From the NCBI RefSeq assembly GCF_013041615.1, contig NZ_JABEPQ010000001.1, forward strand, positions 612,976 to 676,975: 64,000 nt of DNA, written 5' to 3'. Origin of the DNA: Knoellia koreensis (GTDB lineage: Bacteria > Actinomycetota > Actinomycetes > Actinomycetales > Dermatophilaceae). Numbering within the stretch: the first letter of the stretch is position 1; every line of letters starts with the position of its first letter. The notes beneath the pieces are model-generated. The model ran no database searches. It was not told the origin of the DNA and worked only from the letters and a program-made list of their open reading frames with translations. Below, piece after piece: positions 1-64,000 of the stretch. The position numbers and the translations under genes were made by a program.

Positions 1-129
1 CGGCATACCAAGGCTGGCGAGCTGAGCGAGCACGTCAACGAGCTGGTCCTCGTGTCGACGGCCGATGGTGGGGCCGCGGTCGTGGGTTCGGTGCCGACCT
101 ACCGCGGCGAGGGAAAGGCGTTCCTGTGA
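1..129 (+). CDS. C-terminus of D-threonine aldolase / D-serine deaminase-like PLP enzyme (partial)
   Basis: Only the last 42 codons are present. They read RHTKAGELSEHVNEL and end in VPTYRGEGKAFL. This matches, from memory, the C-terminal end of the alanine-racemase-N / DSD1-like 'amino acid deaminase/aldolase' family. In that family the TYRGEGKAF tail closes the beta-domain that carries metal ligands. The stop overlaps the start of the lactone oxidase by GTGA, so the two are probably one operon; this pairing is common in actinobacteria. The 5' part lies outside the window, so PLP lysine and substrate cannot be judged. Confidence 0.6.
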   Translation, partial: RHTKAGELSEHVNELVLVSTADGGAAVVGSVPTYRGEGKAFL

Positions 130-1427
130 CGACGACGTGGCAGAACTGGGGACGCAGCGTGCGCGCCGAACCCGTGGAGGTCGCTCAGCCCGGCAGCGTG
201 GGCGAGGTGGTCGAGGTCGTCCGCGGTGCGCGAGAGCGTGGGTTGACAGTCCGACCGGTTGGCGCCGGCCACTCGTTCACCGCCATCGCCGCGACGGACG
301 GTGTGCTGCTTGATCTTTCGCGACTTTCGGGCGTGCTGGAGGCCGACATCGGCTCCGGTCGGGTACGCCTTGGCGCCGGGACCCACCTACACCAGCTGCC
401 GGACCTGCTGGGCCCGCTCGGGCTGGCGCTGGAGAACATGGGCGACATCGACCAGCAGACCATCGCCGGGGCGATCTCGACGGGGACACACGGGACCGGT
501 GCGACGTTCCGCGGGCTCGCGGCACAGGTCGTCGGGGTCACGCTCATCACGGCATCCGGCGACATTCTCGAGGTGGGGGAGGAGTCCAACGCCGACCTGC
601 TTCCCGCGGTCGCGCTGGGACTCGGCGCCCTCGGCATCCTCGTCGACGTGACCGTGCAGTGTGTGCCGGCGTTCCTCCTGCGCGCGCACGAGAGCTCGGC
701 CGGCCTCGAGGACGTGCTCTCGAACTTTGACGAGTTCGCCGTCGCCGACCACTTCGAGTGCTACTGGTTCCCGGGAACCTCGCGAGTGCAGACCAAGACC
801 AACACCCGCGTGCCCATCGACGTCCCGCACCGGCCCCCGGGGCGCGTCGCCAGAACGCTCGACCAGCGGGTCGTGCAGAACGGGCTCCTGCGGGCGGTAT
901 GCGAGATCGGTGTCGCCGCACCACGATTCACGCCGCCGCTCAACCGGCTGGCCACCCGCGTGCTTGGGGAGAAGGTCTACACCGACCGCTCGCACGCCGT
1001 GTTCACCAGCCCGCGCCACGTCCGCTTCCGGGAGAGCGAGTATGCCGTGCCGCGTGCGGCCCTGCCCGAGGCCGTCCGCGCCTTGCGAACGCTCGTCGAG
1101 CGCAACGCCTGGCGGATCAGCTTCCCGGTCGAGATCCGCGCGGCTGCGGCGGACGATCTCTGGCTGTCCACCGCGCACGGACGGGACTCCGGTTACATCG
1201 CCGTACACCGCTACTGGAAGGAGGACTACGTCCCGTACTTCAGGGCGTTCGACACCCTCATGCGCGACTTCGAGGGGCGACCGCACTGGGGAAAGCTGCA
1301 CTTCCAGGACTCCGAGTCGCTGGCGGGGGTCTACCCGAAGCTCGGTGACTTCGCGGCGGTCCGCGACCGGCTCGACCCGAACCGCCTTTTCGGAAACGCG
1401 TACCTGCGAAAGGTGCTGGGGGAGTAG
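126..1427 (+). CDS. D-arabinono-1,4-lactone oxidase / L-gulonolactone oxidase family
   Basis: FAD-dependent aldonolactone oxidase of 433 residues, which oxidises a sugar lactone in an ascorbate-type reaction; the natural bacterial substrate is usually unknown. The N-terminal FAD_binding_4 domain has VGAGHSF at residues 45-51; the histidine is where related enzymes attach FAD covalently. The C-terminal ALO domain ends with HWGK at about 387-390 and the typical DPNRLFGNAYL tail. No signal peptide is visible, so it is probably cytosolic. The GTG start overlaps the upstream stop by 4 bp, implying translational coupling to the PLP enzyme. Confidence 0.88.
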   Translation: MTTTWQNWGRSVRAEPVEVAQPGSVGEVVEVVRGARERGLTVRPVGAGHSFTAIAATDGVLLDLSRLSGVLEADIGSGRVRLGAGTHLHQLPDLLGPLGLALENMGDIDQQTIAGAISTGTHGTGATFRGLAAQVVGVTLITASGDILEVGEESNADLLPAVALGLGALGILVDVTVQCVPAFLLRAHESSAGLEDVLSNFDEFAVADHFECYWFPGTSRVQTKTNTRVPIDVPHRPPGRVARTLDQRVVQNGLLRAVCEIGVAAPRFTPPLNRLATRVLGEKVYTDRSHAVFTSPRHVRFRESEYAVPRAALPEAVRALRTLVERNAWRISFPVEIRAAAADDLWLSTAHGRDSGYIAVHRYWKEDYVPYFRAFDTLMRDFEGRPHWGKLHFQDSESLAGVYPKLGDFAAVRDRLDPNRLFGNAYLRKVLGE

Positions 1428-1502
1428 CGCGTTCAGGCCCGGCCCGACCGGCAGGCGGAGGCACGGCCCCTCTCTGGCGTGCCCGCGGCATACGACCCTG
1501 CC

Positions 1503-2619: not shown

Positions 2620-3213
2620 GTGACGGGTCTCTTCGGGCAGGACGCGTATGCCGTGCGCTTCGACTGGGGACCCGTCGGCGCCACGGCGGTGGGCGCAGAG
2701 GTGAGCGTGGTGGTCGACGTCCTCAGCTTCACGACATCGGTCACGGTCGCGGTCGAGCGCGGAATGCGGGTGTTCCCGTTCGCCTGGAAGGACAGTCGGG
2801 CGCAGGAGTTCGCCCAGTCTCGGGACGCGGTGCTCGCCGTCGGCAGGCTCGAGGCGACCAGGCCCGGCGCCGTTCCCGCTCCGTCGTTGTCGCCAGCCCA
2901 GCTGACGTCGTGCCCGTTGGTCCCGCGACTGGTCCTTCCTTCTCCGAACGGATCTTCGATCACGACCGTGCTGCAGGATTCCAGGTCGACCGACGACGTG
3001 TTCAGTCCGGAAGCCAGGTCCGCGGCAGACCTGTTCGTCGCCGTCGCCGACGCCGGACGGCTGGATGAGTCCATGCACAACTGTGTGGGCGGCCGCGAGC
3101 TCATCGCCAAGGGGTTCGTGGCCGACGTCGACGTGGCCGCTGAGCTGGATGCGTCAACAACCGTGCCCGTGCTGGTCGACGGTGCATTCGCTCCTATTGG
3201 TCAGGGCGAGTAA
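2620..3213 (+). CDS. ComB-like 2-phosphosulfolactate phosphatase, shortened
   Basis: Resembles ComB, which removes phosphate from 2-phosphosulfolactate (coenzyme M-type sulfonate chemistry) but is widespread in bacteria lacking that pathway. Family signatures visible are VVVDVLSFTTSV near residues 30-41, LVLPSPNGSSITT near 105-117 and, near the end, CVGGRELIAKGFVADVDVAA. Family members are about 235 residues; this one is 197. The segment normally between 'NGS' and 'SPEA', which holds a conserved Cys-Leu-Arg-Asn and the GER..G..RP.ED..GAGA region, appears missing as an in-frame deletion. It may be inactive or a decaying gene. GTG start 8 bp after the antiporter stop. Confidence 0.6.
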   Translation: MTGLFGQDAYAVRFDWGPVGATAVGAEVSVVVDVLSFTTSVTVAVERGMRVFPFAWKDSRAQEFAQSRDAVLAVGRLEATRPGAVPAPSLSPAQLTSCPLVPRLVLPSPNGSSITTVLQDSRSTDDVFSPEARSAADLFVAVADAGRLDESMHNCVGGRELIAKGFVADVDVAAELDASTTVPVLVDGAFAPIGQGE

Positions 3214-4445: not shown

Positions 4446-5995
4446 GGCAGCTGACCAGACGTGACCTCGGCAAGCTCGTCGGCGTGGGTGCGGTGGCTGC
4501 TGCAGGCATGTCGACCCTGTCGGGGTGCGGCAACGATGTCCGGGGCACCAGCGCCACCCTGCTGCGCAGCCGGCGCCCACTCCCGACGGCCTTCGAGGTG
4601 CCGCTCCCCCGGCCGGCGGTCCGTTGTCCCGACTCGTCCGGTCGGCTTGCGATCGTCCAGCGGGTCGCCGACGTCGAGATCCTGCCCGGGGTGAAGACGC
4701 AGGTGTGGGGCTACGACGGGACGTTTCCCGGGCCGACCATCGAGACCCGCGCCGGCTCCCCCGTCACGATCACCCACACGAACGAGCTCCCCGTCCCGAC
4801 CGCGACCCACCTGCACGGCGGCCACACCCCGTCCGACAGCGATGGCTGGCCGACCGACCTCGTCGAGCCTCGTGGCGCAACCGCAAGGGCGACCGGCGGC
4901 CCGTCCCACAGTGGCGGCCACGCGAGCATGGCCGACCCAGATGCCAATGTTTCCAACGGTTCTCGCGACTACCGCTACCCCATGGACCAACAGGCGGCGA
5001 CGCTCTGGTACCACGACCACCGCATGGACTTCACGGGCCCAGCCGTGTGGCGTGGCCTGGCGGGCATGCACCTCGTCCGCGACGACCACGAGGACTCCCT
5101 CGGGCTCCCCCACGGCGAACGCGAGCTGCCCCTGCTCATCGCCGACCGCTCGTTCGACTCCGACGGAGCGCTCCGCTACCCGTCCCGGGACCGCACCCTT
5201 CGCGTGCCAGGCGTCACGGACCAGTGGATGTCCGGCGTCCTCGGCGACGTGATGCTCGTGAACGGCGCTCCGTGGCCCGTCGCCGAGGTCGACGCAGCCC
5301 GCTACCGGCTGCGAATCGTCAACGCCTGCAACGCTCGTCGCGTCACCTTGGTCTTCGAAACGGGAGGACGCGGTATGCCGCTCACGCAGGTCGGCTCCGA
5401 CGGCGGGCTCCTCGCGCGCCCACGATTGCTGCGTGAGCTCATCCTCGCACCGGGCGAGCGAGTCGACGTCGTGGTGGACTTCGGCACGGTCCCCGTGGGG
5501 AGTCGAGTGACCGTGCGGAACACGGTGGGTGGCGGGTCAACCTCGCAGGTGATGCAGTTCGTCGTCGCCCGCAGGGCCTCCGACGACAGCCGCGTTCCCG
5601 ACCGGCTGGCCGAGCGCGCCCCCGGCCTCACGGTCCCGGCCTCGGCACCGCGACGACACTTCACCTTCGCCATGGGCAGCGACGGCGGCACCGCCCTGTG
5701 GACCATCAACGGCAAGCCCTTCGACCCGAGCCGCGCCCTCGCATCGACGCCCCGTGACCAGACCGAGGTCTGGCGGGTCACGTCCAACGTCCACCACCCG
5801 GTCCACCTGCACCTCGACCCGTTCATCGTCATCGGCCGCGAGGAGCTCGGGTGGAAGGACACGGTCGACATGAGACCCGGTGAGACCCTCGACCTCGCTG
5901 TCCGCTTCCACGACTACGCAGGCCGCTACGTCATGCACTGCCACAACCTCGAGCACGAGGACATGGCGATGATGGCGCGCTTCGACGTCACGTGA
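4442..5995 (+). CDS. Tat-exported multicopper oxidase, putative lipoprotein
   Basis: 517 residues. The N-terminus reads MRQLTRRDLGKLVG followed by a hydrophobic stretch and LSGC, a twin-arginine signal with a possible lipobox, so export as a folded copper protein anchored to the membrane is likely. All four copper-ligand clusters are visible: HLHGGH near 123, WYHDHR near 190, HPVHLHLD near 452 and HCHNLEHEDM near 498. This is a three-domain CueO/bilirubin-oxidase-type enzyme coupling substrate oxidation to reduction of O2 to water. No methionine-rich insert is evident, so copper(I) oxidation is not specifically indicated. A small Ser/Gly/His-rich loop at about 150-165 could bind metal. Confidence 0.9.
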   Translation: MRQLTRRDLGKLVGVGAVAAAGMSTLSGCGNDVRGTSATLLRSRRPLPTAFEVPLPRPAVRCPDSSGRLAIVQRVADVEILPGVKTQVWGYDGTFPGPTIETRAGSPVTITHTNELPVPTATHLHGGHTPSDSDGWPTDLVEPRGATARATGGPSHSGGHASMADPDANVSNGSRDYRYPMDQQAATLWYHDHRMDFTGPAVWRGLAGMHLVRDDHEDSLGLPHGERELPLLIADRSFDSDGALRYPSRDRTLRVPGVTDQWMSGVLGDVMLVNGAPWPVAEVDAARYRLRIVNACNARRVTLVFETGGRGMPLTQVGSDGGLLARPRLLRELILAPGERVDVVVDFGTVPVGSRVTVRNTVGGGSTSQVMQFVVARRASDDSRVPDRLAERAPGLTVPASAPRRHFTFAMGSDGGTALWTINGKPFDPSRALASTPRDQTEVWRVTSNVHHPVHLHLDPFIVIGREELGWKDTVDMRPGETLDLAVRFHDYAGRYVMHCHNLEHEDMAMMARFDVT

Positions 5996-6023: not shown

Positions 6024-6923
6024 ATGGCGGCATACCGGTTCTCCAACCTGACCAGCGCTGTCGCCGACCACCGTTCGCCCCTGAGGCGCTACCTCGACGA
6101 CCACTTCCCGCACGTCCGTCCGGTCCAACACGCCTACCGCGAGCCACCACGACGGCTCCTCGTCCCCGGCGGTCCCTCCGACCCGGCAGCCATCGGCGCG
6201 GCATACGACCTCGGCGTCAGGTTCGTCCTCGACCCGACCCACTCCCCCAGCATCGCCCTCTACGGCTTCGTCACCGAACCCCGGCTGCTCGCCGTCGTCG
6301 ACGCCGTGGTGTCACGCGCGCAGTCTGCGGCGGCGCACCAGGACGACGGCCAGGCCCGCGACGACCTCGCCCGGGCGTGCTGGGCGCTGGCGTGGTGCAC
6401 CGACGTCTACCGCAGCGGCGGCATCCGACCGGAGTCACCGCTGGCACCGCTGCTCGCCACCGGCACGTTCACCCCTGATGCCCTCCTTCGCCTCGCCCAG
6501 CCGGACGCCCTGCGCCAGCTCGACGAGCTCGCCCGCCTGAGCCGCCAGCACCTGCTCCCACAGTTGGGTCGCCCGGTGGCGCTGGGCCCCACCTTCGAGG
6601 CATCCGCCCTGTGCGCCGCCGACGCCGACCTCATCGCCGGGCGCCTCCTGGTCGACCTCAAGACCCGGCTCGGGCCCAAGGACAAGGAGACCGGCCGGCG
6701 CAGCGACCGCCTGCGGACCGTCGACCTCTACCAGCTCGTCGCCTACGTGCTGTTCGACCGGCACGACAGGTTCGCGGTCGACTCCGTCGGCATCTACTCC
6801 GCACGCTACGCCACACTCATCACGTGGCCCCTCCAGCAGCTGCTCGACGACCTCGCCGACCAACCCGTCGACCTCCCGCGCGCCCGTGCGCAGGTGTGGC
6901 GCCTCCTGGGCGGAGCGGGCTGA
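6024..6923 (+). CDS. Hypothetical protein with possible PD-(D/E)XK nuclease core
   Basis: 299 residues, soluble. I do not recognise a named family, but similar proteins opening with 'YRFSNLTSAVADHRSPLRRYL' in two stretches seem widespread in actinobacteria. The segment ADADLIAGRLLVDLKTR at about 197-213 has the D-x(n)-DxK spacing of PD-(D/E)XK phosphodiesterases. It is followed by VDLYQLVAYVLFDRHD and a GIYSARYATLITW strand, as in the alpha/beta layout of that fold. A nuclease role is inference. It stands alone, convergent with the DUF1345 gene. A CGGCATAC site overlaps its second to fifth codons. Confidence 0.55.
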   Translation: MAAYRFSNLTSAVADHRSPLRRYLDDHFPHVRPVQHAYREPPRRLLVPGGPSDPAAIGAAYDLGVRFVLDPTHSPSIALYGFVTEPRLLAVVDAVVSRAQSAAAHQDDGQARDDLARACWALAWCTDVYRSGGIRPESPLAPLLATGTFTPDALLRLAQPDALRQLDELARLSRQHLLPQLGRPVALGPTFEASALCAADADLIAGRLLVDLKTRLGPKDKETGRRSDRLRTVDLYQLVAYVLFDRHDRFAVDSVGIYSARYATLITWPLQQLLDDLADQPVDLPRARAQVWRLLGGAG

Positions 6924-6932
6924 GCCACGTCC

Positions 6933-7661
6933 TCAGATCGAGGCGAGCGCGCCCACGACGATCGCCAGGATCACGGTGTTGAACACGAAGGCGAGAGCCC
7001 CCTGACCGCTCACGGCCTTGCGCATCCGGGTGGTTGTCACGTCGATGTCGGTCGTCCCGAAGGTCGTCATCGCCATCAGGGCAAAGTAGAAGTAGTCCCA
7101 CCACACCGGCTGGCCGCCTCCCGGCAGGCTCAGGCCCTTCCCGTCGTCGTCGGACTGCACCCGCGCGTAGTAGACGGCATACCCGACCACCACCGTCGCC
7201 CAGCTCACGGCGACGGTCGCGATCGCGAGGCTCGCCAGGAGTCCGCGACTGGCCCCGTGTGCGACCGCGTCGAGGCGCGGCAGGATCGCCGCCCCGGCAA
7301 AGGCCACGATGGACAGGGCAAGGGCCGAGTCGGGTCCGTCACCACCGCCCAGGAACCACCGCAGGAGCGGCCCGGGCGGACGCGGCCGGTGGACGAGCCG
7401 GGCCAGCTCGTCGGCGCTCTCCTGGTGGAACGCCTTCCACGTGAGGACGTCGTAGACGAGCCCGTAGATGATCCAGATGACCATCACCGCACTGATCTGG
7501 GACACCGAGAAGTCACCGTCACGCGCTGCCACGACCAGGACGAACACGAGGACGGGGACGATGGCGACCACGATCGCAACGCCCGCGCGCTTGAAGTCGT
7601 CGTGGAACCATCGGCGCCTGGTCGGCGTCGCGGCAGTGCGTGGCGTCGTCACCGTGAGCAT
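6933..7661 (-). CDS. DUF1345 integral membrane protein
   Basis: 242 residues with about six hydrophobic helices. The C-terminal half carries the DUF1345 pattern: [19 protein letters not shown], then [20 protein letters not shown]. The family is uncharacterised; the FGTTD loop is reminiscent of an ion-channel pore helix but there is no real selectivity filter. It is divergent from rlmC with only about 32 bp between starts, so both promoters are compressed into that gap. Confidence 0.7.
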
Positions 7662-7693: not shown

Positions 7694-8842
7694 GTGCAGT
7701 GCGACTACTTCGACGCGGGCGTGTGCCGTTCGTGCACCCTCATGGGCGTCGGGTATGCCGCGCAGCTGGCAGAGAAGGACGCTCACGTCCGCGCGGTGCT
7801 GACCGAGGTCGTGACGCCTGGCGCGTGGACCGATCCCTTTTCGAGTCGTGAGAACGGTTTTCGCAACAAAGCCAAGCTTGTGGTCGGGGGCCGGCGGGGG
7901 TCGCCCGTTCTCGGGATCCTTGACGACGACTCGCGCGTGGTCGACCTGACCCGGTGCGGGCTCTACGAGCCGGGTCTGCACGAGGCGGTTCTTCGCCTGC
8001 CCCAGCTGGTGGGCGAGATCGGCCTGACGCCGTACGACGTTGCCACCCGCAACGGTGAGCTCAAACACCTGCTGGTGACCCACTCCCCCGACGGCGAGCT
8101 CATGCTGCGCTTCGTCCTGCGGTCCGAGGGACAGCTGCGACGGTTGCGCGAGCACCTGCCAACCATCCAGCGGGTGTTACCGACCGCCAAGGTCGTCACG
8201 GCCAACCTCCTGCCCGAGCACAAGGCCCTCCTCGAGGGTGACGAGGAGGTCGTGCTTTCTCCTGAGGCCACTCTTCCCATGCAGGTCAACGGGATCCGGC
8301 TCCACCTGCGGCCCCGCAGCTTCTTCCAGACCAACACCGAGGTGGCCGCCGGGCTCTACCGCCAGGCGCAGGACTGGCTGTCCGACACCGCCACCCAGAC
8401 GCTTTGGGACCTCTACTGCGGCGTCGGCGGCTTCGCCCTCCACGCGATGACCGCCGCCACCGCCCCGCAGCGGGTCGTCGGCATCGAGGTGTCAGCCGAC
8501 GCCGTGGCGTCCGCCGAGCTCTCCACTCAGGCACTCGCCAGTCGAAAGCCGTTGCCACAGTGGGTGTTCCACGCTGGCGACGCCACGGCATACGCCCACG
8601 ACAACCCCGCACCGGACACCGTCCTCGTCAACCCGCCACGACGCGGCATCGGCACGGACCTGTCCCACTGGCTGGAGAGCAGCCGAACCGTGCAACGCGT
8701 GCTCTACTCCTCGTGCAACGCCGAGTCGCTCGCGCGCGACCTCGGCCTCATGCCGTCGCTGAAACCCATCCGGGCACGCCTCTTCGACATGTTCCCGCAG
8801 ACCCGGCACCACGAGGTGCTCGTGCTGCTGGAGCGGGGCTGA
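7694..8842 (+). CDS. rlmC: 23S rRNA (uracil-5)-methyltransferase RlmC/RumB family
   Basis: 382 residues, close to E. coli RlmC (375). The start GTG 7694 is chosen because MQCDYFDAGVCRSC aligns with the family N-terminus, where Cys3, Cys12, Cys15 and a later Cys (DLTRCGLY) bind a 4Fe-4S cluster. Motifs: FFQTNTEVAAGLY, the SAM-binding WDLYCGVGGFALH, VNPPRRGIG, and SSCNAESLARD whose Cys (about 341) is the catalytic nucleophile. It methylates U747 of 23S rRNA in E. coli; the exact target here is inferred. Confidence 0.88.
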   Translation: MQCDYFDAGVCRSCTLMGVGYAAQLAEKDAHVRAVLTEVVTPGAWTDPFSSRENGFRNKAKLVVGGRRGSPVLGILDDDSRVVDLTRCGLYEPGLHEAVLRLPQLVGEIGLTPYDVATRNGELKHLLVTHSPDGELMLRFVLRSEGQLRRLREHLPTIQRVLPTAKVVTANLLPEHKALLEGDEEVVLSPEATLPMQVNGIRLHLRPRSFFQTNTEVAAGLYRQAQDWLSDTATQTLWDLYCGVGGFALHAMTAATAPQRVVGIEVSADAVASAELSTQALASRKPLPQWVFHAGDATAYAHDNPAPDTVLVNPPRRGIGTDLSHWLESSRTVQRVLYSSCNAESLARDLGLMPSLKPIRARLFDMFPQTRHHEVLVLLERG

Positions 8843-9306: not shown

Positions 9307-10308
9307 ATGGCGGACGTGCCGAATGACGCGTCGACGACCGACCACGACGTCGACTGGCCGGTGGGACGGGTGGCCGAACGCGTCGGTGTTCCCGCCGCCA
9401 CCTTGCGCACGTGGGACCGCCGCTACGGCATTGGTCCGTCGCTGCGCACCGGCGGTGGCCACCGCCGCTACACCGAGGAGGACGTGCGGCGCGTGCGGGT
9501 CATGGCCCGCTTCATCGGCCGTGGCGTACCCGCGCTCACTGCTGCGCGGATCGCCTCCGCCATGGACTCCGAGCGCCTGCGGATCGAGGTGCCGAACGCC
9601 TCGGCTCAGACCGCTGGCGAGGACGCGGCCACTGCACTGCAGGGCACGTCCTTCGACACTGGCCATGACTCGACCGTGCTCGACGGTCCCATCGCCGAGA
9701 TCAGCAGCGCAGCCATCGCGCTGCACGCCCAGACGCTGACGTCGCTCTACCGCAAGACCTTGCGCGAACGCGACCTCGTCAGCGCATGGACCGACGTCTT
9801 CTCCCCCGCGCTGCGCCTCATCGGTGAGCAGTGGGGCGAAGGGGCGCTCGGTGTCGAGTCCGAGCACCTCGCCAGCGAGCTCCTCGTCGCCGAGCTTCGT
9901 GCGATCATCCACGCCGCCCGGCCACCGCACCCCCGCCGTAGCGTCCTGCTCGCCGGCGCGGACGATGAGCAGCACTACCTGCCCCTGCTCGCCCTCCAGG
10001 CCGAGCTGGCGCGCCAGGGTCTCTCGGCGGCATACCTGGGACCGCGTCTGCCCACCCGTGCGCTCGGTGACCTCATCACCAGGCGCCAGCCCGACGCCGT
10101 CTTCCTCTGGGCGTCGATGGAACGACCCGACGCCGAGCCACTGTGGCACACCCTCGCCACGGCCACCGGTCCCCTCGACGTCGTGCTCGGCGGACCCGGG
10201 TGGCCGAACACCCTGCCGCGCGTCGCCGACGGGGTGAAGGTGACGCGGGTGAGCGACCTGGCCGCCGCTGCCCGCGCACTCCAGCACCTCCCGGAGGCAC
10301 CGGGCTGA
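9307..10308 (+). CDS. MerR-type regulator with B12-binding domain (CarH/LitR-like)
   Basis: 333 residues. An N-terminal MerR winged helix (about 15-85: VGRVAERVGVPAATLRTWDRRYG, split for length at PAAT) is followed by a four-helix cap and a cobalamin-binding domain. The W-x9-EH motif that caps adenosylcobalamin in CarH is present (W at about 175, then EH in VESEHLAS). A histidine at about 223 (DEQHYLP) matches the lower axial ligand, although the usual following glycine is missing. Start ATG 9307 is supported by GAAGGAGGTG 8 nt upstream. CarH/LitR proteins repress light-inducible genes until B12 photolysis; no carotenoid or photolyase gene is nearby, so targets are unknown. Confidence 0.82.
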   Translation: MADVPNDASTTDHDVDWPVGRVAERVGVPAATLRTWDRRYGIGPSLRTGGGHRRYTEEDVRRVRVMARFIGRGVPALTAARIASAMDSERLRIEVPNASAQTAGEDAATALQGTSFDTGHDSTVLDGPIAEISSAAIALHAQTLTSLYRKTLRERDLVSAWTDVFSPALRLIGEQWGEGALGVESEHLASELLVAELRAIIHAARPPHPRRSVLLAGADDEQHYLPLLALQAELARQGLSAAYLGPRLPTRALGDLITRRQPDAVFLWASMERPDAEPLWHTLATATGPLDVVLGGPGWPNTLPRVADGVKVTRVSDLAAAARALQHLPEAPG

Positions 10309-11805: not shown

Positions 11806-11844
11806 GCCGTCAAGGGTATGCCGCGTGGTCACTAGGGTGGTCGC

Positions 11845-14528: not shown

Positions 14529-15067
14529 CACCGACCCCATTTCTGCGCCATTGCGCGAACCACCGTCATGTTGCGTGCCGTACCGGTCACGCCGAGCATC
14601 TTCTCCAGCCGTGCGCTGGTCAGCCTGGCCTGGTGGAACGGCACGGCGTAGTCCATGAGGACATCCTTCCCCATGACGAAGGCGCGTTCACCGGCGACGT
14701 CCCACGCCTCCACCTCGGCCTTGGCCGCAGCCGTGGGCGCCTTGTCGCAGAAGAGGACGTAGCGCGTGGTCGCCCCGGACGACGCCTCGGGTATGCCGTC
14801 CACAGCCTCGACCAGGGGCGGCAGCTCCTGCGGTCGCCGGACGACTGCGACGATCTCGAACCCGGCGTGCTCGGTGAGCACGCGGCCCACCTCTGCCTCG
14901 ATCTTGGGGATGCTGCGCATGGTGGTGGCGACGAGGAAGTTTCCGGTCTGGATGTGGGACTCGACCTCGCCGAACCCGGCTTCCTCCAAGGCTTTTCGCG
15001 CCTCAGCGATCTTGAGCTGGCGCTTGGAGACGTTCACTGCTCGCAGGAGTGCGATGAACTCAGGCAT
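14528..15067 (-). CDS. DUF1697 protein
   Basis: 179 residues. The opening IALLRAVNVSKRQLKIAEAR and SHIQTGNFLVATTMRS match DUF1697, a small family with no established function. It overlaps the upstream serine hydrolase by 8 bp and the downstream osmC by one base, so it is translated within the operon. A GTATGCCG site at 14791 is accommodated by a rare ATA codon in DGIPEAS. Confidence 0.8.
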   Translation of the reverse strand: MPEFIALLRAVNVSKRQLKIAEARKALEEAGFGEVESHIQTGNFLVATTMRSIPKIEAEVGRVLTEHAGFEIVAVVRRPQELPPLVEAVDGIPEASSGATTRYVLFCDKAPTAAAKAEVEAWDVAGERAFVMGKDVLMDYAVPFHQARLTSARLEKMLGVTGTARNMTVVRAMAQKWGR

Positions 15068-49906: not shown

Positions 49907-51215
49907 GGTCCTCGGCGGGCGGCTGCCACGTCGATGCGTCGGCGTCGTCTTGCTGGCCCGAGCGGATGTCCTTGACCTGGTCGCCCCCGGACTCGGCCGC
50001 ACCCGGGAACCAGACGTACGGGATCCCACGCCGCTCGGCATACCGGATCTGCTTGCCGAACTTGGCCGGCTTGGGTGCGACCTCGCACGGTATGCCGCGC
50101 TGCCGCAGCGCCGTGGCGATGCCCACCGAGGTGGGGCGTGACTCCTCGTCGTTGACGGCGACCAGGACGGCCGCCGGGGTCGAGCGCGAGGCGGTGACCA
50201 GCCCCTTGGACAGCAGCAGCCCGAGCAGGCGCGAGACACCGATCGAGATGCCGACCCCGGGGTAGGTCGTCTTCCCGTCCGAGGCGAGCGAGTCGTAGCG
50301 CCCGCCGGAGCAGAACGAGCCCCACGACTCGTAGCCGGCGAGCTGGGTCTCGTAGACGGTGCCGGTGTAGTAGTCGAGGCCCCGGGCGATCTTGAGGTCC
50401 GCGACCATGGCGCCGGGCGCGTTGTCCATGCCCGCGCGGATCACGGCGGCGAGCGCGTCGAGCCCCTCGTCGAGCGTGGGGTGCGAGACCCCGAGCGCCC
50501 GCACCTGCTCGACGAAGGACAGGTCGGCAGAACGGATCCCGGCCAGCGCGAGGCACTGCTGCGCCTGCTCGGGCGTGCACCCGGCGGCGACGAGCTGCTC
50601 GGCCACCTTGTCCGGGCCGATCTTGTCGAGCTTGTCGACGATGCGCAGCGTGCCGGCCACGTCCTCGATGCCGATGCCGCGGTAGAAGCCCTCGGGGATC
50701 TTGCGGTTGTTGACCTGGATCACCATCGGCGGGATCGGCAGCTTGCGGAAGACCTCGGCGATGACCAGCGGCATCTCGGCCTCGAAGTGCGGCGCCAGCT
50801 CGCCCACGTCGACGACGTCGATGTCGGCCTGGGTGAACTCGCGGTAGCGGCCCTCCTGCGGCCGCTCGCCGCGCCACACCTTCTGGATCTGGTAGCGGCG
50901 GAACGGGAACGACAGGTGCCCGGCGTTCTCGAGCACGTAGCGCGCGAACGGCACGGTGAGGTCGAAGTGCAACCCCAGCTCGGAGTCCGCAGCCGCCGTC
51001 GCCTCGTCGGCCGCGAGCCGCCGGATGCCGTAGATCTCCTTGTCCGCGTCGCCGCCCTTGCCGAGCAGCCGCTCGACGGGCTCGACCGCCCGCGTCTCGA
51101 TCGAGGGGTACCCGTGCAGCTCGAACGTCTCGCGGATGACGTCGAGGAAGTGCTGTTCGACGATGCGCTGGGACGGGAGGTACTCGGGGAAACCGCTGAT
51201 CGGGCTGATCTTCAC
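49866..51215 (-). CDS. hisS: Histidyl-tRNA synthetase
   Basis: 449 residues, class II synthetase. [14 protein letters not shown], the histidine-specific [13 protein letters not shown] loop and motif 3 [14 protein letters not shown] are present, followed by an anticodon-binding domain with [21 protein letters not shown] start overlaps the MBL hydrolase stop by 4 bp. Two octamer sites at 50036 and 50090 lie in its C-terminal domain, one encoded through ATA. Confidence 0.93.
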
Positions 51216-51913
51216 GCGGTCAATCCTTGCAGGTAGGGGTTGGTCGCCCGCTCACGGTCCATCGTCGTCGCCGGCCCGTGCCCTGGCAGCACGAGCGTCG
51301 TGTCCGGCAGGGGCAGGACGACGTCGCGCAGCGAGCGCTGCATCGCCGCGTCGCTGCCACCGGGCAGGTCGGTGCGGCCGATGGCGCCGGCGAACAGCAC
51401 GTCGCCGGAGATCACGGTCGAGTCCACGTCGACCTGGTCGGACACGCCGTCCGGCACGGACGGCATACGGAAGAGCACCGAGCCCTCGGTGTGCCCGGGC
51501 GCGTGCAGCACCTCCACGTCGAGGCCGGCGAGCGAGAGCCGCTCGTGGTCACGGACGTCGACGACGTGCTCGGGCTCCTTCCACGTCGCCTTGCGCCCGA
51601 ACTGCTGCTCCACCATGGCCAGCAGCGGCGGGCTGATGAGGGCCAGGGGGTCCTTGAGGCGATAGGCGTCGTCCGCGTGGATGTATGCCGCGGTGTCGCC
51701 TCCGCAGACGGGCGTCACCGAGTAGACGTGGTCGAGGTGGCCGTGGGTCAGCAGGACCGCAGCCGGGCGCAGGCGGTGCTCGGTGAGCAGTTCGCGCAGG
51801 GTCTCTTCCACACCGATGCCCGGGTCGACGATGAGGCACTCCTCGCCCACTGCCGGGGCGATGACGTAGCAGTTGGCGTCGATGACCTGGCCGGGGAACG
51901 CGAACGTCAGCAC
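51212..51913 (-). CDS. MBL-fold hydrolase (glyoxalase II-like)
   Basis: 233 residues, metallo-beta-lactamase fold with THGHLDHVY (metal ligands), HAPGHTEGSV and late LPGHGPATT. Similar to YcbL/GloB-type hydrolases acting on thioesters such as S-lactoylglutathione or analogues. First gene of a two-gene unit with hisS. Confidence 0.85.
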   Translation of the reverse strand: MLTFAFPGQVIDANCYVIAPAVGEECLIVDPGIGVEETLRELLTEHRLRPAAVLLTHGHLDHVYSVTPVCGGDTAAYIHADDAYRLKDPLALISPPLLAMVEQQFGRKATWKEPEHVVDVRDHERLSLAGLDVEVLHAPGHTEGSVLFRMPSVPDGVSDQVDVDSTVISGDVLFAGAIGRTDLPGGSDAAMQRSLRDVVLPLPDTTLVLPGHGPATTMDRERATNPYLQGLTA

Positions 51914-51958: not shown

Positions 51959-54010
51959 ATGACCGGTCCGACGGTGGTCCGCGACCCTTGGGGCGTCCCG
52001 CAGCTGTGGGCGCCCGACGTCATCACCCTGTCCCGGCTGCACGGTTGGGTCACCGCGCTCGACCGGGCCTGGCAGCTCACGACGCTGCGCTGGCGCAGCG
52101 AGGGCCGGATGGCGCAGCACCTCGGCCACAACTGGGTGTCGGCCGACGTGTTCGCCCGGCAGGCGCGGCTCGAGGACACGGCCCGCCGCGCGCACGAGCG
52201 GCTCGACGACGAGACCAGGGCCTGGGTCACGGCCTACGCGGACGGGGTGACGGCGGGGCTCGCAGAGGCAACGGCGCAGACCCCCGAGCTGGCCGCGCTC
52301 GAGGTCGAGCCGGAGCCATGGCAGCCGTGGACGCCACTGTCGACGCTGCTGCTGCAGCACGTGCTGTTCGGCAGCCTGCCGGCCAAGCTGTGGCGCGACC
52401 ACGTGCGCCGGGTGAGCCCTGCCGCCCGCCAGCTGCTCGACGCCGCACCCGGCAGCGGCGACGGCGACGGGCCCGCCGGCGGCAGCAACGCCTGGGCCGT
52501 CGCGGGCGTCCGCTCCGCCACGGGGCTGCCGATGGTCGCCGGAGACCCGCATCGCACCATCGAGCTGCCCGGCGTCTACCAGCAGGTGCGGCTCGCCTGT
52601 CCCGACTTCGATGTGGTCGGCTTCGCCTTCGCCGGGGTGCCGGGTGTGCCGCACTTCGGCCACGCCGGACCCGTTGCCTGGGGCATCACCAACGCGATGG
52701 CCGACTGCCACGACGTGTATGTCGAGGACCTGCGCCGCAGTAACCACGGGCTCGAGGCCCGTGGTCCGGATGGCTGGGCACCTGCCGACACCCGGATCGA
52801 GACGGTGACGGTCGCGGGCGGCGTGCCCGTCACCGTCGAGATCGTCGAGACCGCGCGGGGCTGCGTCGTGGTCGGCGGCCCCGACGAGGACCGCGCGCTC
52901 TCGGTGCGCATGGCCCCGCGCGTGCTGCTCGACACCGGCATCGCCTCCGCCCTCGCGCTGCTGCGCGCCCGGTCGACGCAGGACGTCGAGGCCGCCTGGG
53001 CGGGCTGGGTCGAACCCGTCAACGCCGTCCTCACCGCCGATGACACCGGACGGGTCGTCGAGCTCACGGCAGGCCGGGTTCCGTTGCGGCACAACGACAA
53101 CCGCGAAGGTCCCGTGCCAGCGTGGGAGCCGGGGCACGAGTGGACCGGCTGGGCGGAACACGGTCGGGCGCCCGTGGACGACGTCGCCGTCCACGCCAAC
53201 CACTCCTCCGCGCTGACCTCGCCACACGGTCGTGACTTCGCCTCGGACGCGCGGGTCGACCGCATCGCCGACCTCCTGGCCGGGAAGGCGACGTTCGACG
53301 TCGACGACCACCGCGGCATACACATGGACACGTTCCACTCCCCCGCCCCCCGCCTCCTCGCGCGCACCCGGCACCTCGCCGGGCTCTCCCCCGCTGCCGA
53401 AGGCCTGCGGGAGGAGCTGCTCGCCTGGGACGCGCGGATGGATGCCGACAGCGTGCAGGCGGGCAGGTATGCCGCGTGGCGGGCCGCCGTGCTCCGTGAC
53501 CTCTGCGCCCATCCGCTCCTGGCCCCTTTGGTGGCGGGTGACCTGCCTACGGTCTTCGCGCCGTGGATGTCCGTGGGCTCCCGGGTGCTGCAGCGGCTCG
53601 AGGCGCTCCTCGACGACCCGCCAGCGGGCTTCGACGTGGAAGCCGCACTGGCGGCGGGGCTCGAGGCAGCCGCGGCCCACGAGGGCACCTGGGGTGAGCG
53701 GCACCGGCTGGCCGCGGTGGTGGTCGTGGCGCCCGGCGAGCCCCCAGCCGAGCACGTCAGCGTCTCCGGCGACCGCGACTGCGTCCTCGCGACGTCGTCG
53801 CTGCCTGATGCCGACGACGTCGCGGTCCAGGGGCCGGCGGCGCGGTACGTGTGGGACCTGTCGGACCGGTCCCGCAGCCGGTGGGTCGTGCCACACGGCG
53901 CCGTGGGCCGCACCGGCGACCCGCACCAGCTCGACCAGCAACCGCTGTGGCTCGCCGGTGAGCTGGTGCCGGTGCCGGACGACCGGCTGGGTCCAAGGCG
54001 CCCTGCCTAG
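51959..54010 (+). CDS. Penicillin acylase family (Ntn-hydrolase), no signal peptide
   Basis: 683 residues. The autoproteolytic site is GGSNAWAVAG, with the nucleophile Ser176 becoming the beta-subunit N-terminus; HRTIELPGVYQQV and FGHAGPVAWGITNA in the beta part are further landmarks. Penicillin and homoserine-lactone acylases share this fold but are normally exported; here no signal sequence is seen before the alpha-chain, so the product may be cytosolic. Substrate unknown. ATG 51959 starts 45 bp from the divergent MBL gene. Confidence 0.83.
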   Translation: MTGPTVVRDPWGVPQLWAPDVITLSRLHGWVTALDRAWQLTTLRWRSEGRMAQHLGHNWVSADVFARQARLEDTARRAHERLDDETRAWVTAYADGVTAGLAEATAQTPELAALEVEPEPWQPWTPLSTLLLQHVLFGSLPAKLWRDHVRRVSPAARQLLDAAPGSGDGDGPAGGSNAWAVAGVRSATGLPMVAGDPHRTIELPGVYQQVRLACPDFDVVGFAFAGVPGVPHFGHAGPVAWGITNAMADCHDVYVEDLRRSNHGLEARGPDGWAPADTRIETVTVAGGVPVTVEIVETARGCVVVGGPDEDRALSVRMAPRVLLDTGIASALALLRARSTQDVEAAWAGWVEPVNAVLTADDTGRVVELTAGRVPLRHNDNREGPVPAWEPGHEWTGWAEHGRAPVDDVAVHANHSSALTSPHGRDFASDARVDRIADLLAGKATFDVDDHRGIHMDTFHSPAPRLLARTRHLAGLSPAAEGLREELLAWDARMDADSVQAGRYAAWRAAVLRDLCAHPLLAPLVAGDLPTVFAPWMSVGSRVLQRLEALLDDPPAGFDVEAALAAGLEAAAAHEGTWGERHRLAAVVVVAPGEPPAEHVSVSGDRDCVLATSSLPDADDVAVQGPAARYVWDLSDRSRSRWVVPHGAVGRTGDPHQLDQQPLWLAGELVPVPDDRLGPRRPA

Positions 54011-54086
54011 ACTGTCGCCCACGACGGCCGCCCTCGACGGGCGACCACACGGCATACCCACTTGCCATCGACGATCGGGAGCACTG

Positions 54087-56289: not shown

Positions 56290-58604
56290 GCCTTCGGCGC
56301 GGTCGCCTTGGTGCCGGTGATGCGGTAGACGTCGAACACGCCGTCGATCTTGCGCACCGAGTTGATGACGTGGTCGAGGTGGCCGGGGTCGCCCATCTCG
56401 AAGGTGAACTTGCTGATCGCCACCCGGTCGCGTGAGGTCTGCACCGACGCCGACAGGATGTTGACGTGCTGGTCGGACAGCACCCGCGTGACGTCCGACA
56501 GGAGCCGGTTGCGGTCGAGCGCCTCGACCTGGAGCTGCACGAGGAACACCGACGCCGCCGACGGCGCCCACTCGACCTCGATCATCCGATCCGGTTGGGA
56601 CAGAAGGGATTCGGCGTTGGTGCAGTCGGTGCGGTGCACGGAGACACCGTTGCCCCGCGTGATGAACCCCATGATCGGGTCGCCCGGCACCGGGGTGCAG
56701 CAGCGGGCCAGCTTCACCCACACGTCAGCCGTGCCGACGACGACCACGCCCGGGTCGCCCGACCGCCGCCGCATCGACCGCGTGCGGGTCGGGGTCGTCG
56801 CCTCGGCCAGGTCCTCGGACGCACCCTCCTCGCCGCCGAGCGACGCCACGAGGCGACCCACCACGTGCTGGGCGGACACGTGCCCCTCGCCCACCGCGGC
56901 ATACAACGCATCGATGTCCTGGTAACGCAGCTCGGAGGCGAGACCGGTCAGGGTCTCGACTGTGAGCAGGCGCGTGAGCGGCAGGCCCTCCTTGCGCATC
57001 GCCTTGGCGATGGCGTCCTTGCCGGTCTCGATCATCTCCTCGCGGCGCTCCTTGGAGAACCACTGGCGGATCTTGTTGCGCGCCCGCGGGGACTTCACGA
57101 ACGTCAGCCAGTCACGCGAGGGTCCGGCCCCGTCGGCCTTGGAGGTGAGCACCTCGACGACGTCGCCGTTCTCGAGCGTCGACTCCAGCGGCACGAGGCG
57201 GCCGTTGACCCGCCCGCCGATGCAGTGGTGCCCGACCTCGGTGTGCACGGCGTAGGCGAAGTCGACCGGCGTCGCCCCGGCCGGCAGCGCCACGACCTCA
57301 CCCTTGGGGGTGAAGACGTAGACCTCGCGCGCGTTGATCTCGAACCGCAGCGAGTCGAGGAACTCTCCCGGGTCGGAGGTCTCCTTCTGCCAGTCGAGCA
57401 GCTGGCGCAGCCACGCCATGTCGTTGATGGGGCCGGTCTCGCCGTCCCTGGTGCCCGCGCCCGCCGCCGCGGTCGCGTCCTCCTTGTACTTCCAGTGCGC
57501 CGCGACACCGTACTCGGCCCGACGGTGCATGGTGTGGGTGCGGATCTGGATCTCGACCGGCTTGCCCTGCGGGCCGATCACGGTGGTGTGCAAGGACTGG
57601 TACATGTTGAACTTCGGCATCGCGATGTAGTCCTTGAACCGCCCGGGCAGGGGGTTCCACCGCGCGTGCAAGGCGCCGAGCGCCGCATAACAGTCACGCA
57701 CCGAGTCGACCAGCACGCGCACCGCGACGAGGTCGTAGATGTCCTCGAAGTCGCGGCCGCGCACGATCATCTTCTGGTAGACGGAGTAGTAGTGCTTAGG
57801 CCGGCCCGTGACCGTGGCCTTGATCTTGGCGGACTTCAGGTCGGTGCCGACCTGTTCGCGCACCCCGGCAAGGAACTCCTCACGCGCCGGCGCACGCTCC
57901 GCCACGAGCCGCACGATCTCGTCGTAGACCTTGGGGTAGAGCGTCGCGAACGAGAGGTCCTCGAGCTCCCACTTGATGGTGTTCATGCCGAGCCGGTGGG
58001 CCAGCGGCGCGTAGATCTCGAGGGTCTCGCGGGCCTTGCGCTGCGCCGACTCGACCGAGACGTAGCGCCACGTGCGGGCGTTGTGCAGCCGGTCCGCAAG
58101 CTTGATGACGAGCACGCGGATGTCGCGCGACATCGCCACGACCATCTTGCGGACGGTCTCGGCCTGCGCGGCGTCGCCGTACGTCACCTTGTCGAGCTTG
58201 GTGACGCCGTCGACGAGCATCGCGACCTCGGAGCCGAAGTCCTTCTCCAGCTGGGCGAGGCTGTATGCCGTGTCCTCGACCGTGTCGTGCAGCAGCGCGG
58301 CCGCGAGGGTGGGCGGGGTCATGCCCAGCTCGGCGAGGATGGTCGTCACCGCGAGCGGGTGGGTGATGTACGCGTCGCCGGACTTGCGCTTCTGGCCCCG
58401 GTGGGCCTCCTCGGCGACGACGTAGGCGCGCTCGATGACGTCGAGGTCGGCCTTGGGGTGGGTGGCTCGCACCGTCTGGAGCAGTGGCTCCAGGACCGGG
58501 TTGCTGGGGGTACCCCTGGACCCGAAGCGCGCGAGCCGGGCGCGGACCCTGCTGGCCGAGGACGTGCCGGTGCCGATGGGCCCGGTGACGACGTCCTCAG
58601 TCAT
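56286..58604 (-). CDS. rel: Bifunctional (p)ppGpp synthetase/hydrolase Rel
   Basis: 772 residues. HD hydrolase domain ([20 protein letters not shown] written in two parts; LLHDTVEDT), synthetase domain ([20 protein letters not shown]), TGS domain ([22 protein letters not shown]), a zinc-finger-like region ([20 protein letters not shown]) and a C-terminal ACT domain. Makes and destroys the stringent alarmone. It is the single long RSH typical of actinobacteria. Start GTG/ATG near 58604. Confidence 0.93.
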
Positions 58605-59154: not shown

Positions 59155-59176
59155 CAGGTATGCCGCGTGGCGCCGG

Positions 59177-62532: not shown

Positions 62533-62593
62533 CGGCATACCGACCAACGCGCCTCACCGATGCCACGTTCCAATCCGCGGGTATGCCGCGTGG
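62533..62593. repeat. Inverted octamer pair in the yajC-ruvB gap
   Basis: CACACGGCATACC ends at 62541 and GGTATGCCGCGTGG runs 62580-62593; the 12-bp arms ACACGGCATACC and GGTATGCCGCGT pair with one mismatch over a loop of nearly 40 nt. It lies between the yajC start and the ruvB stop on the minus strand, so a terminator role for ruvB is possible. Less compact than the pair after der. Confidence 0.6.
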
Positions 62594-62606
62594 TCACGCG
62601 GGTGCC

Positions 62607-63734
62607 TCAGTCGCCGAAGCGGCCCTCGCCGTCGAGCGGCAACGGCGTCTGCACGTCGGCGCCCCGTGGCGGGGTGAGGCCGAGGTGCTGCCAGGCCAGA
62701 GCCGTGGCGGCGCGGCCGCGGGGCGTGCGGGTGATGAGGCCTTCGCGCACGAGGAACGGCTCGGCGACCGTCTCGACGGTGTCGGCCTCCTCCCCCACGG
62801 CGACGGCAAGCGTCGACAGGCCCACGGGCCCGCCGCCGAAGCGGCGGCACAACGCGTCGAGCACGGCCCGGTCGAGCCGGTCGAGGCCGAGGTCGTCGAC
62901 GTCGAACAGCGCCAGCGCGGCGTGCGCGGCCTCCTCGTCGACGACGTCGCGCCCGTGCACCTGCGCCCAGTCGCGCACCCGCCGCAGCAGCCGGTTGGCG
63001 ATACGCGGTGTGCCGCGCGAGCGACGCGCGATCTCGCTGATGCCGGCCGCATCGGCGGCAACCTCGAGCAGCCCGGCCGACCGCGCCAGGATCGTCTCGA
63101 GCTCGTCGACGGCGTAGAAGTCGAGGTGCCCGGTGAACCCGAACCGGTCGCGCAACGGCGCCGGCAACAGGCCCGCGCGCGTCGTCGCGCCGACGACGGT
63201 GAACGGGGGCAGCTCCAGCGGGATGGCGGTCGCGCCCGGGCCCTTGCCGACGATCACGTCGACGCGGAAGTCCTCCATGGCGAGGTAGAGCATCTCCTCG
63301 GCCGACCGCGACATCCGGTGGATCTCGTCGAGGAACAGCACCTCGCCCTCCATCAGCGAGGACAGGACCGAGGCGAGGTCGCCGGCGTGCTGGATGGCCG
63401 GGCCGCTGGTGATGCGGATCGGGCGTTCGAGCTCGGAGCCGATGAGCATGGCCAGGGTCGTCTTGCCGAGACCCGGCGGGCCCGAGAGCAGCACGTGGTC
63501 CGGTGGCGTGCCGCGCCGGCGCGCTGCCTCCAGCACCAGGGACAGCTGGTCGCGCACCCGCGACTGCCCGGCGAACTCGGCCAGGCGACGCGGACGCAGG
63601 GCCGCCTCGACGGTGCGTTCGTCGGCGTCACCCTGGGCGTCGACCACGCGGGCCGTGGCGTCGTAGGACTCGTCGCGCTCGCGGTCGCCGAACACGTCGC
63701 CGTCGTGCATCTCAGAGGAGTAGCCGTCGCTCAC
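62607..63734 (-). CDS. ruvB: Holliday junction branch-migration helicase RuvB
   Basis: 375 residues, AAA+ ATPase. Walker [10 protein letters not shown] at 85-93, Walker [11 protein letters not shown], sensor [11 protein letters not shown] and C-terminal winged helix with [16 protein letters not shown]. An acidic N-terminal extension (1-40) precedes the core. GTG start overlaps the ruvA stop by 4 bp. Confidence 0.95.
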
Positions 63735-64000
63735 CGGGGCCCCAGCTCACGCAGCGCTGCCCGCAGCCGTGTCGACACGTCCGCCGACTCATCCACCGTG
63801 TCGGCGACCTTGCCCACGGCGTCGTCGGCCTGCTTGGCCGAGTAGCCCAGCCCGACGAGGGCCTCGGCCACCTGGTCGCGCCAGGCGGCGGCCGGTGCCG
63901 CACCCGCGGCGGGTGCGGTGTCCGCGGCAGCCGCGCCGGACGGCATACCCAGCTTGTCACGCAGCTCCAGGACGATGCGCTCGGCGCCCTTCTTGCCGAT
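63731..64000 (-). CDS. ruvA: Holliday junction DNA-binding protein RuvA (C-terminal part)
   Basis: The window holds the last 89 codons; the 5' part lies beyond the right edge. The visible part starts [19 protein letters not shown], the helix-hairpin-helix region of RuvA, followed by an Ala-rich linker and the C-terminal domain III ([20 protein letters not shown]) that contacts RuvB. A CGGCATAC site at 63941 lies in the linker. Confidence 0.93.

Follow-up and report, generated by a model that had tools for sequence, protein, structure and literature searches.

The octamer GTATGCCG as a probable Pedococcus dialect of an actinobacterial word resembling DNA uptake sequences, with a proposed reading by a Tad-type competence pilus

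Introduction

Which process could place one and the same octamer, GTATGCCG, about once per kilobase on both strands of the genome of a soil actinobacterium? This question is raised by a 64-kb stretch of DNA from Knoellia koreensis (the whole stretch analyzed, hereafter "the window"), in which a sequence-only reading had noticed the word and compared its density with that of the DNA uptake sequences (DUS) of Gram-negative bacteria. Judged by its sequences, the genome is that of a Pedococcus relative (family Intrasporangiaceae, order Micrococcales according to NCBI); the closest named matches of its TadA protein are found in Phycicoccus sp. Root101 (90%), Pedococcus bigeumensis (89%), Phycicoccus sp. 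Soil802 (88%), and Pedococcus cremeus (85%). We consider it quite probable that GTATGCCG is the Pedococcus dialect of a word in Actinomycetota that resembles DNA uptake sequences, and we propose that it would be read by a Tad-type competence pilus. As the defining features of uptake sequences are word-dependent uptake and a receptor, a likeness is claimed here and not proven membership.

Abundance and exactness of the word

The window contains 62 exact copies of GTATGCCG, 28 on the plus and 34 on the minus strand, which are the numbers that the sequence-only reading had given as approximate. Its expectation of two to three copies from base composition agrees with a third-order Markov model (2.8 copies), while dinucleotide shuffles of the window (n = 100) yielded 0.98 copies on average and never more than 4; the excess is real and had even been understated. 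Among all window 8-mers with at least 15 copies, GTATGCCG ranks first by z-score, and the 7-mer GTATGCC, said to be almost always followed by G, is followed by G in 62 of 62 cases. The exact matches, with their gene context according to predicted genes, and one hairpin formed by two of them are as follows:

1..8, minus strand, GTATGCCG, window edge
1040..1047, plus strand, GTATGCCG
1486..1493, minus strand, GTATGCCG
2646..2653, plus strand, GTATGCCG
5373..5380, plus strand, GTATGCCG
6028..6035, minus strand, GTATGCCG
6199..6206, minus strand, GTATGCCG
7175..7182, minus strand, GTATGCCG
7753..7760, plus strand, GTATGCCG
8586..8593, minus strand, GTATGCCG
10028..10035, minus strand, GTATGCCG
11816..11823, plus strand, GTATGCCG, intergenic
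14791..14798, plus strand, GTATGCCG
15179..15186, minus strand, GTATGCCG
15419..15426, minus strand, GTATGCCG
16222..16229, minus strand, GTATGCCG
17692..17699, plus strand, GTATGCCG, intergenic
20311..20318, plus strand, GTATGCCG
20482..20489, minus strand, GTATGCCG
21643..21650, minus strand, GTATGCCG
22381..22388, minus strand, GTATGCCG
22633..22640, minus strand, GTATGCCG
23869..23876, plus strand, GTATGCCG
24313..24320, plus strand, GTATGCCG, overlaps a predicted gene start in part
24425..24432, minus strand, GTATGCCG
28047..28054, minus strand, GTATGCCG
29394..29401, minus strand, GTATGCCG
30700..30707, plus strand, GTATGCCG, intergenic
32219..32226, plus strand, GTATGCCG
32450..32457, minus strand, GTATGCCG
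33365..33372, plus strand, GTATGCCG
34184..34191, plus strand, GTATGCCG
35380..35387, plus strand, GTATGCCG
35725..35732, minus strand, GTATGCCG
37009..37016, minus strand, GTATGCCG
37097..37104, plus strand, GTATGCCG
37348..37355, minus strand, GTATGCCG
40246..40288, minus strand, inverted-pair hairpin with a 15-bp outer stem, terminator-like, weak U-tract
40252..40259, minus strand, GTATGCCG, intergenic, arm of the inverted pair
40275..40282, plus strand, GTATGCCG, intergenic, second arm of the inverted pair
41802..41809, plus strand, GTATGCCG
43306..43313, minus strand, GTATGCCG
43969..43976, plus strand, GTATGCCG
44511..44518, minus strand, GTATGCCG
44769..44776, minus strand, GTATGCCG
45583..45590, plus strand, GTATGCCG
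46176..46183, minus strand, GTATGCCG
47350..47357, plus strand, GTATGCCG
48688..48695, minus strand, GTATGCCG
49148..49155, plus strand, GTATGCCG
50036..50043, minus strand, GTATGCCG
50090..50097, plus strand, GTATGCCG
51461..51468, minus strand, GTATGCCG
51683..51690, plus strand, GTATGCCG
53314..53321, minus strand, GTATGCCG
53467..53474, plus strand, GTATGCCG
54050..54057, minus strand, GTATGCCG, intergenic
56897..56904, minus strand, GTATGCCG
58263..58270, plus strand, GTATGCCG
59158..59165, plus strand, GTATGCCG
62533..62540, minus strand, GTATGCCG
62581..62588, plus strand, GTATGCCG, intergenic
63941..63948, minus strand, GTATGCCG, overlaps a predicted gene end in part

Since 94% of the window is coding, synonymous codons were shuffled among the predicted genes (58 genes from a simple in-house caller) as a control. 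That the word is a by-product of a codon or dipeptide preference might be suggested by 37 of 52 coding sites, which lie in the two frames reading Tyr-Ala or Ala-Tyr. With the proteins fixed and the codons shuffled 300 times, however, the average was 2.2 copies and the highest count 7, against 54 in the actual gene strings (sites in overlapping genes enter this number twice). In addition, other frames are used, both strands are occupied, and eight intergenic copies fall within the approximately 4 kb of intergenic DNA. This explanation is thus already refuted and retains next to no probability. The whole genome (4.28 Mb) contains 3,986 copies (0.93 per kb), as compared to 114 copies of the reversed-word control (54 on the plus and 60 on the minus strand). 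The excess therefore extends far beyond the window, and neither a genome-wide codon-aware ratio near 1 nor a restriction to the window, the two outcomes that the sequence-only reading had named as speaking against its claim, was found.

The word is not only abundant but also exact. In 396 kb of the genome, a count that left out two word-poor accessory Tad loci, 354 exact copies were observed vs. 17 expected, while the 24 one-mismatch neighbors showed no excess as a group (248 observed vs. 292 expected). Three neighbors were raised, namely GGATGCCG (71 vs. 42 expected), GAATGCCG (16 vs. 7), and GTACGCCG (34 vs. 19), all of which are spellings abundant in some relatives. The flanks are softer than the core: with the first G of the word as position 0, and among the 61 window sites that have full flanks, position -1 is G in 38 sites, position +8 is C or T in 52, and positions +9 and +12 are G in 46 and 38, respectively, resulting in the loose extended form GGTATGCCG[C/T]GNNG.

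Strand neutrality and placement

Within the window, 52 sites are wholly genic, eight are intergenic, and two overlap a gene in part. The genic copies ignore gene direction, as the sequence-only reading had stated (28 along the gene, 24 opposite), and its near strand balance was recovered genome-wide (1,983 copies on the plus and 2,003 on the minus strand). Over 15 segments of 12-120 kb, no strand polarity was found (167 plus vs. 194 minus copies, heterogeneity chi-square 12.7). The word thus occurs on both strands without replication or gene polarity when judged by segment, as uptake sequences do, and it differs, as had been claimed, from FtsK-orienting polar sequences (KOPS) and Chi. These data bear on the idea of a Chi-like recombination hotspot word with a RecBCD/AddAB/AdnAB-type reader. 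Chi words are likewise abundant, host-specific, and spelled by lineage, but as a rule they favor one strand with respect to replication; the missing bias, seen by segment with the origin and terminus not located, renders such a role very unlikely.

The spacing of sites is slightly more even than random (coefficient of variation of the intervals 0.87, 287 intervals). Between near relatives with 75-78% identity, 28 of 73 GTATGCCG sites were unchanged in 8 locus pairs, which are not independent of each other, the corresponding values being 20% for other octamers and 24% for those with three A/T. Ten window proteins were scanned, of which most have core functions (EngA/Der-type GTPase, histidyl-tRNA synthetase, ScpA, a ParA-like protein, SecD/SecF, and glycine dehydrogenase) and one had no match.

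Distribution among relatives

A sample of 98 relatives (genomes and loci are given as G and L numbers where they have to be told apart) comprised 11 genomes of the host genus, 49 genomes that each represent another genus of the family, and 38 from other families of the order. A count in relatives, as proposed by the sequence-only reading, revealed that GTATGCCG is rich in all 11 genomes of the Pedococcus genus, the host included (625-3,986 copies), and in 26 of the 49 other family genera (939-4,724 copies), while the remaining 23 contain 7-293 copies. One of the genomes classed as rich, G025, has 1,142 copies vs. 453 of the reversed-word control. In the 38 genomes from other families of the order, at most 167 copies were found, and a search of 296 genomes of the class gave no count above 386 in the 290 that lie outside the family; this top count stems from a 7.5-Mb genome whose reversed-word control amounts to 176. 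Uptake sequences are short and exact words with roughly 0.5-2 copies per kb genome-wide, far above the codon-aware expectation, a trait that GTATGCCG shares.

Named loci, mostly sampled at about 21 kb each, exhibit the same patchiness. The word is present in those of Pedococcus, Knoellia sinensis, Serinicoccus, several Ornithinimicrobium, Flexivirga, Metallococcus, a Lapillicoccus metagenome-assembled genome, and Arsenicicoccus cauae. Within the family it is missing from the loci of Janibacter limosus, Phycicoccus endophyticus, Phycicoccus jejuensis, Kribbia, and Arsenicicoccus piscis, and outside the family from those of Blastococcus, Geodermatophilus, and Cellulomonas.

Dialects and a second family

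To find other spellings, each of the 23 word-poor genera was represented by 20-80 kb and some word-rich ones by 5-60 kb, and the top 8-mer was determined without prior choice. GGATGCCG was found to be the word of G036 and G026, GTATGACG is used alongside GTATGCCG in G013 and G037, GAATGCCG alongside GTATGCCG in G022, and GTATGCGG in G030, the evidence for the last two being limited to 40 and 60 kb of sampled DNA, respectively. These one-letter variants occur at about 0.3-1 copies per kb, and in all six genomes they lie above every codon shuffle (e.g., 37 vs. 4.1 in G036, 26 vs. 1.4 in G022, and 16 vs. 1.9 in G030). All firm dialects differ from GTATGCCG by a single letter, at position 2, 6 or 7. 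Whole-genome counts of GGATGCCG reached 3,949 in G036, 3,816 in G026, 2,195 in G053, which is mixed with an additional 1,217 copies of GTATGCCG, and 1,336 in G011; those of GTATGACG reached 1,954 in G037 and 1,557 in G013. In most genomes GGATGCCG is about twice as frequent as its reversed-word control, and in some that have no dense word the ratio reaches up to about 6; this control is rough, and densities were compared instead.

The spellings follow the phylogeny as far as a ComEC tree of 43 genomes reflects it (a single gene, with 12 of 40 inner branches open): spelling labels required 17 changes vs. a shuffled mean of 25.0, a value as low being reached in 0 of 200 shuffles. Sisters with a common spelling are G026/G036, G013/G037, G046/G047 (CGAAGGGG), and G025/G031, the last pair having the longer consensus CGTATGCCGCT in common. 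Congruence of dialects with phylogeny is likewise a trait of uptake sequences.

Outside the family, a second family of the order (f19), probably Microbacteriaceae judging by size, GC, and species richness, has GGATGCCG at 0.4-1.3 copies per kb in 12 of its 13 sampled genomes; the exception, G228, has 485 copies and is not rich. All genomes outside f19 in this search remained at about 0.25 per kb or lower. Codon-aware counts in f19 were 48 vs. 10.2 in G095 and 17 vs. 5.3 in G208; 20 kb of G079 gave only 6 vs. 2.4, with GGATGCCT and CGGATGCC as top words.

Weaker candidates were also obtained. GTACGCCG (G033, G049, G057, weaker in G034) survives codon shuffling, but its labels are unclustered on the ComEC tree (3 changes vs. 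a shuffled mean of 3.0) and its status is doubtful. GGATGCCG is weak in G011 (codon-aware 21 vs. 8.8), which carries the label "none" on the tree, and GGACGCCG is weak in G060 (36 vs. 15.6). GTGTACCA in Nostocoides sp. F2B08, 12 vs. 0.4 at first, fell to 11 vs. 6.7 after codon shuffling and was dropped. No clear word emerged from 32-80 kb each of G012, G018, G019, G020, G023, G024, G029, G038, G045, G050, G054, and G058, an amount at which low-density words would escape; in sparse genomes (e.g., G006, G009, and G010) 20 kb were insufficient and GTATGCCG was not the top word.

A different word, CGAAGGGG, is abundant on both gene strands and independent of codons in the Janibacter/Marihabitans clade (L129, L130, L140, and L160) and in G046 (L030, L054, L078, and L100) and G047 (L031 and L094), with 52 vs. 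8.4, 27 vs. 3.5, and 47 vs. 6.7 copies in three codon-shuffling tests. Its features suggest a further uptake-like word that is unrelated to GTATGCCG. Separately, GGAGCCGG is raised in G016 (L020, L083, and L103; 53 vs. 17.7 after codon shuffling), the only one of the 98 genomes without TadE. In G025, a long consensus CGTATGCCGCTGRGC (17 sites; L045, L073, and L074) contains GCCGCTG, i.e., the GCCGTCTG part of the Neisseria DUS GCCGTCTGAA, as spelled in PMC6370729, minus one base; this likeness is probably a coincidence.

The dialects also bear on an explanation modeled on the highly iterated palindromes (HIPs) of cyanobacteria, in which a methyltransferase together with methylation-directed mismatch repair, or another repair bias, would make and keep the word, and dialects would follow changes of the enzyme. 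According to PMC4390886, HIP1 is very frequent, while some species nearly lack it and have alternate words in its place, together with a matching methyltransferase. The lack of excess one-mismatch copies of GTATGCCG would fit a correcting process. However, HIPs are palindromic while neither GTATGCCG nor its dialects are, and the dialect changes are single and without symmetry; we regard this explanation as unlikely. As an observation of its own, the HIP1 word GCGATCGC is raised over a codon-blind expectation per 20 kb in L234 of G072 (30 vs. 7.1) and in L048 of G030 (18 vs. 3.6).

Absence from mobile DNA

Within the initial 213 kb of contig 1, the two largest intervals between plus-strand sites each enclose about 10.9 kb that is free of the word on both strands; under random spacing, 0.16 gaps of this size would be expected genome-wide. 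The first contains a serine recombinase (PF00239, PF07508), the second a tyrosine integrase (PF00589) and small excisionase-like helix-turn-helix proteins. Capsid genes (PF05065) were found in three of the 11 genomes of the genus and lie in all three cases inside word-free gaps of 6.8-7.2 kb, though word-free gaps of about 7 kb are not very rare in G001 and G002, where wider capsid-free gaps occur nearby (one in G001, two in G002). As with uptake sequences, the word is thus missing from recently acquired mobile DNA, in a small number of cases (2 gaps, 3 capsid genes). Two accessory Tad loci of the genome (L062 and L064 on contigs 8 and 15) contain four and three GTATGCCG per 20 kb, and that of the word-rich G027 (L080) contains none in 10.2 kb, which suggests that word-poor accessory Tad clusters are late arrivals; two other Tad loci of the host are not word-poor.

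A binding site for a chromosome-organizing or nucleoid protein, selected for even coverage in segregation or condensation, would also be genome-wide, strand-neutral, slightly even, and absent from the mobile segments examined. Known organizer sites are rarer or polar. For an essential organizer it would be odd that 23 of 49 family genera lack the exact word and that close relatives differ, and the sites appear costly to coding freedom, as 22 of the 33 TAT codons of window genes lie inside the word (as do 6 of 9 ATA codons). Such a role appears quite unlikely.

Inverted pairs and hairpins

In the genome, GTATGCCG followed after 3 to 33 nucleotides by its inverse CGGCATAC occurs 111 times and the opposite form, CGGCATAC first, 47 times, where arithmetic from site densities predicts about 29 of each. 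The GTATGCCG-first form is the commoner one throughout the genus (11 of 11 genomes); in G025 it gives rise to near-perfect stems such as GTATGCCGCTGAGC-CG-GCTCAGCGGCATAC. Over-represented inverted pairs are a further trait of uptake sequences; they would not be expected of a Chi-like word, and we know of no such trait in HIPs. The window pair belongs to the second form. Its hairpin (-31.9 kcal/mol, z -4.86) is situated directly past the stop codon of the minus-strand EngA/Der-type GTPase gene (40292-41821) and is the one clear terminator-like hairpin of the window. Eight inverted pairs were located in 436 kb of the genome, five of them intergenic and three coding.

Competence machinery and proposed mechanism

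The sequence-only reading had proposed a search for competence and pilus genes. The genome was found to encode comEA (HHH_3, SLBB) and comEC (Competence, Lactamase_B) by Pfam matches as well as a Tad cluster with TadA-, TadB-, TadE-, and TadE/G-like matches, so that DNA import machinery is present in the host, as it is in most word-less relatives. The type IVa pilus ATPase domain PF05157 occurs in 22 of 98 genomes and is absent from the host and the other ten of the genus, i.e., the word is independent of a classical type IV pilus.

In the mechanism we propose, word-bearing DNA would be bound, irrespective of the strand on which the word lies, by a cell-surface receptor that belongs to the competence apparatus and is most likely a minor Tad/Flp pilus subunit. 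The bound DNA would be imported by ComEA and ComEC, and RecA-type recombination would insert it into the chromosome. As word-bearing fragments would be imported more often, the exact word would spread and be kept across the recombining core genome. Such a spread by transformation would place the word in any orientation, in genic as well as intergenic DNA, whereas mobile DNA of recent arrival would be devoid of it, and drift of the receptor would result in one-letter dialects. The host would accordingly be naturally competent, with an uptake biased toward its own word.

Several observations weigh against this mechanism, of which the first is the main gap: among the proteins compared, no gene, charge or residue pattern was found to track the word. 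ComEC was matched in 92 and TadE in 97 of the 98 relatives, word-rich or not, and the machinery is therefore no predictor of the word. Among word-less genomes, G016 lacks TadE and G058 lacks comEA in the 20 kb around comEC, but many have both TadE and comEA. Conversely, the word-rich G039, G042, and G043 (fragmented assemblies, 58-95% complete) have no ComEC match, and in G004, a word-rich member of the host genus (2,537 copies), the match is in two pieces (G004:C1:1517076-1517881), reflecting a frameshift that is either genuine or an assembly error; the missing whole ComEC of these four genomes is perhaps due to assembly. The Tad cluster pilins (Flp, TadE, TadF-like, and TadG-like), compared by eye for full clusters of the common kind, occur in both classes without a difference in charge. 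For ComEA and ComEC alignment columns (18 word-rich and 12 word-less genomes, with G011, G033, G034, G046, G047, G049, and G057 left out as doubtful or other-word), the association with the word was within or below the range of five control proteins from the same loci. In some other genera the opposite form of the inverted pair is the commoner one (14 vs. 27 in G014, 2 vs. 12 in G028), and both the clustering of dialects and the absence from mobile DNA would fit any host-specific word. Finally, searches of the open-licence literature yielded no record of DNA uptake or transformation in these hosts. The comparison with uptake sequences made by the sequence-only reading thus gained from the dialects, the mobile DNA, the hairpins, the lack of polarity, and the com and Tad genes, and lost from the missing correlation with ComEC or TadE presence and the lack of a receptor candidate. 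The alternatives it had named, a structural, methylation-linked or nucleoid-protein role, retain some probability.

Significance and comparison with known systems

To our knowledge, tags for the uptake of kin DNA are so far known only from two Gram-negative families. We lean toward the view that Actinomycetota have an uptake-sequence system of their own, which would be the third lineage and the first in monoderms, read by a Tad/Flp pilus, with at least five spellings in two families and possibly CGAAGGGG in addition. If confirmed, the phylum, the monoderm host, and the Tad-type pilus would be new, while the kind of system is already known. Kin-selective natural transformation would then be routine in a large bacterial group in which transformation has hardly been studied, and the word would provide a genome-encoded readout of it across two actinobacterial families as well as an independent replicate for the open question why uptake words evolve. 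Co-variation of the dialects would offer a handle on the DNA receptor of the Tad pilus, and the local word on donor DNA may ease laboratory transformation of such species. If the word is no uptake tag, its abundance and exactness in two families call for another explanation.

Micrococcus luteus belongs, like the host, to the order Micrococcales. Its transformation requires tad genes, and it possesses comEA/comEC and Tad clusters (PMC4322843) but no comG cluster (PMC6370729). Unlike in the system described here, no uptake word is reported in PMC4322843, where "uptake sequence" and "sequence specific" occur 0 times. The sequence-only reading knew of no such sequence in actinobacteria, and none of the open-licence papers found by our searches reports an actinobacterial uptake word in its title or abstract.

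With cyanobacterial HIP1 and alternate HIPs, GTATGCCG shares the nature of a very abundant, patchy octamer that is replaced by other words in some species. Unlike the non-palindromic GTATGCCG and its dialects, HIPs are palindromic and tied to methyltransferases (PMC4390886).

The uptake signal sequences (USS) of Pasteurellaceae resemble GTATGCCG as a dense word across a family, in their case a transformable one; they are strand-neutral and form inverted pairs as well. They differ by an unrelated word, a Gram-negative host, a type IV pilus, and a proven function. The USS receptor was long sought and has only recently been predicted (PMC12616744).

Close parallels are found in the DUS of Neisseriaceae, which are read by the receptor ComP. 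These differ from GTATGCCG in their 10-12-mer length as compared to an octamer core and in their host, which is here a monoderm actinobacterium; since no type IVa pilus ATPase was matched in the genome, the pilus would here be of the Tad type. Like GTATGCCG, DUS are dense short words that occur within genes and as inverted pairs, and their dialects differ by a few letters and are congruent with the core-genome tree; DUS occupy about 1% of the N. meningitidis genome, and their inverted pairs are linked to terminators (PMC3630211). Mobile elements stand out by an atypical DUS distribution (PMC7371117), a contrast also seen for GTATGCCG. Even the mixed dialects of G013, G022, G037, and G053 have a counterpart in Simonsiella muelleri, for which two DUS dialects in one genome have been described (PMC3630211).

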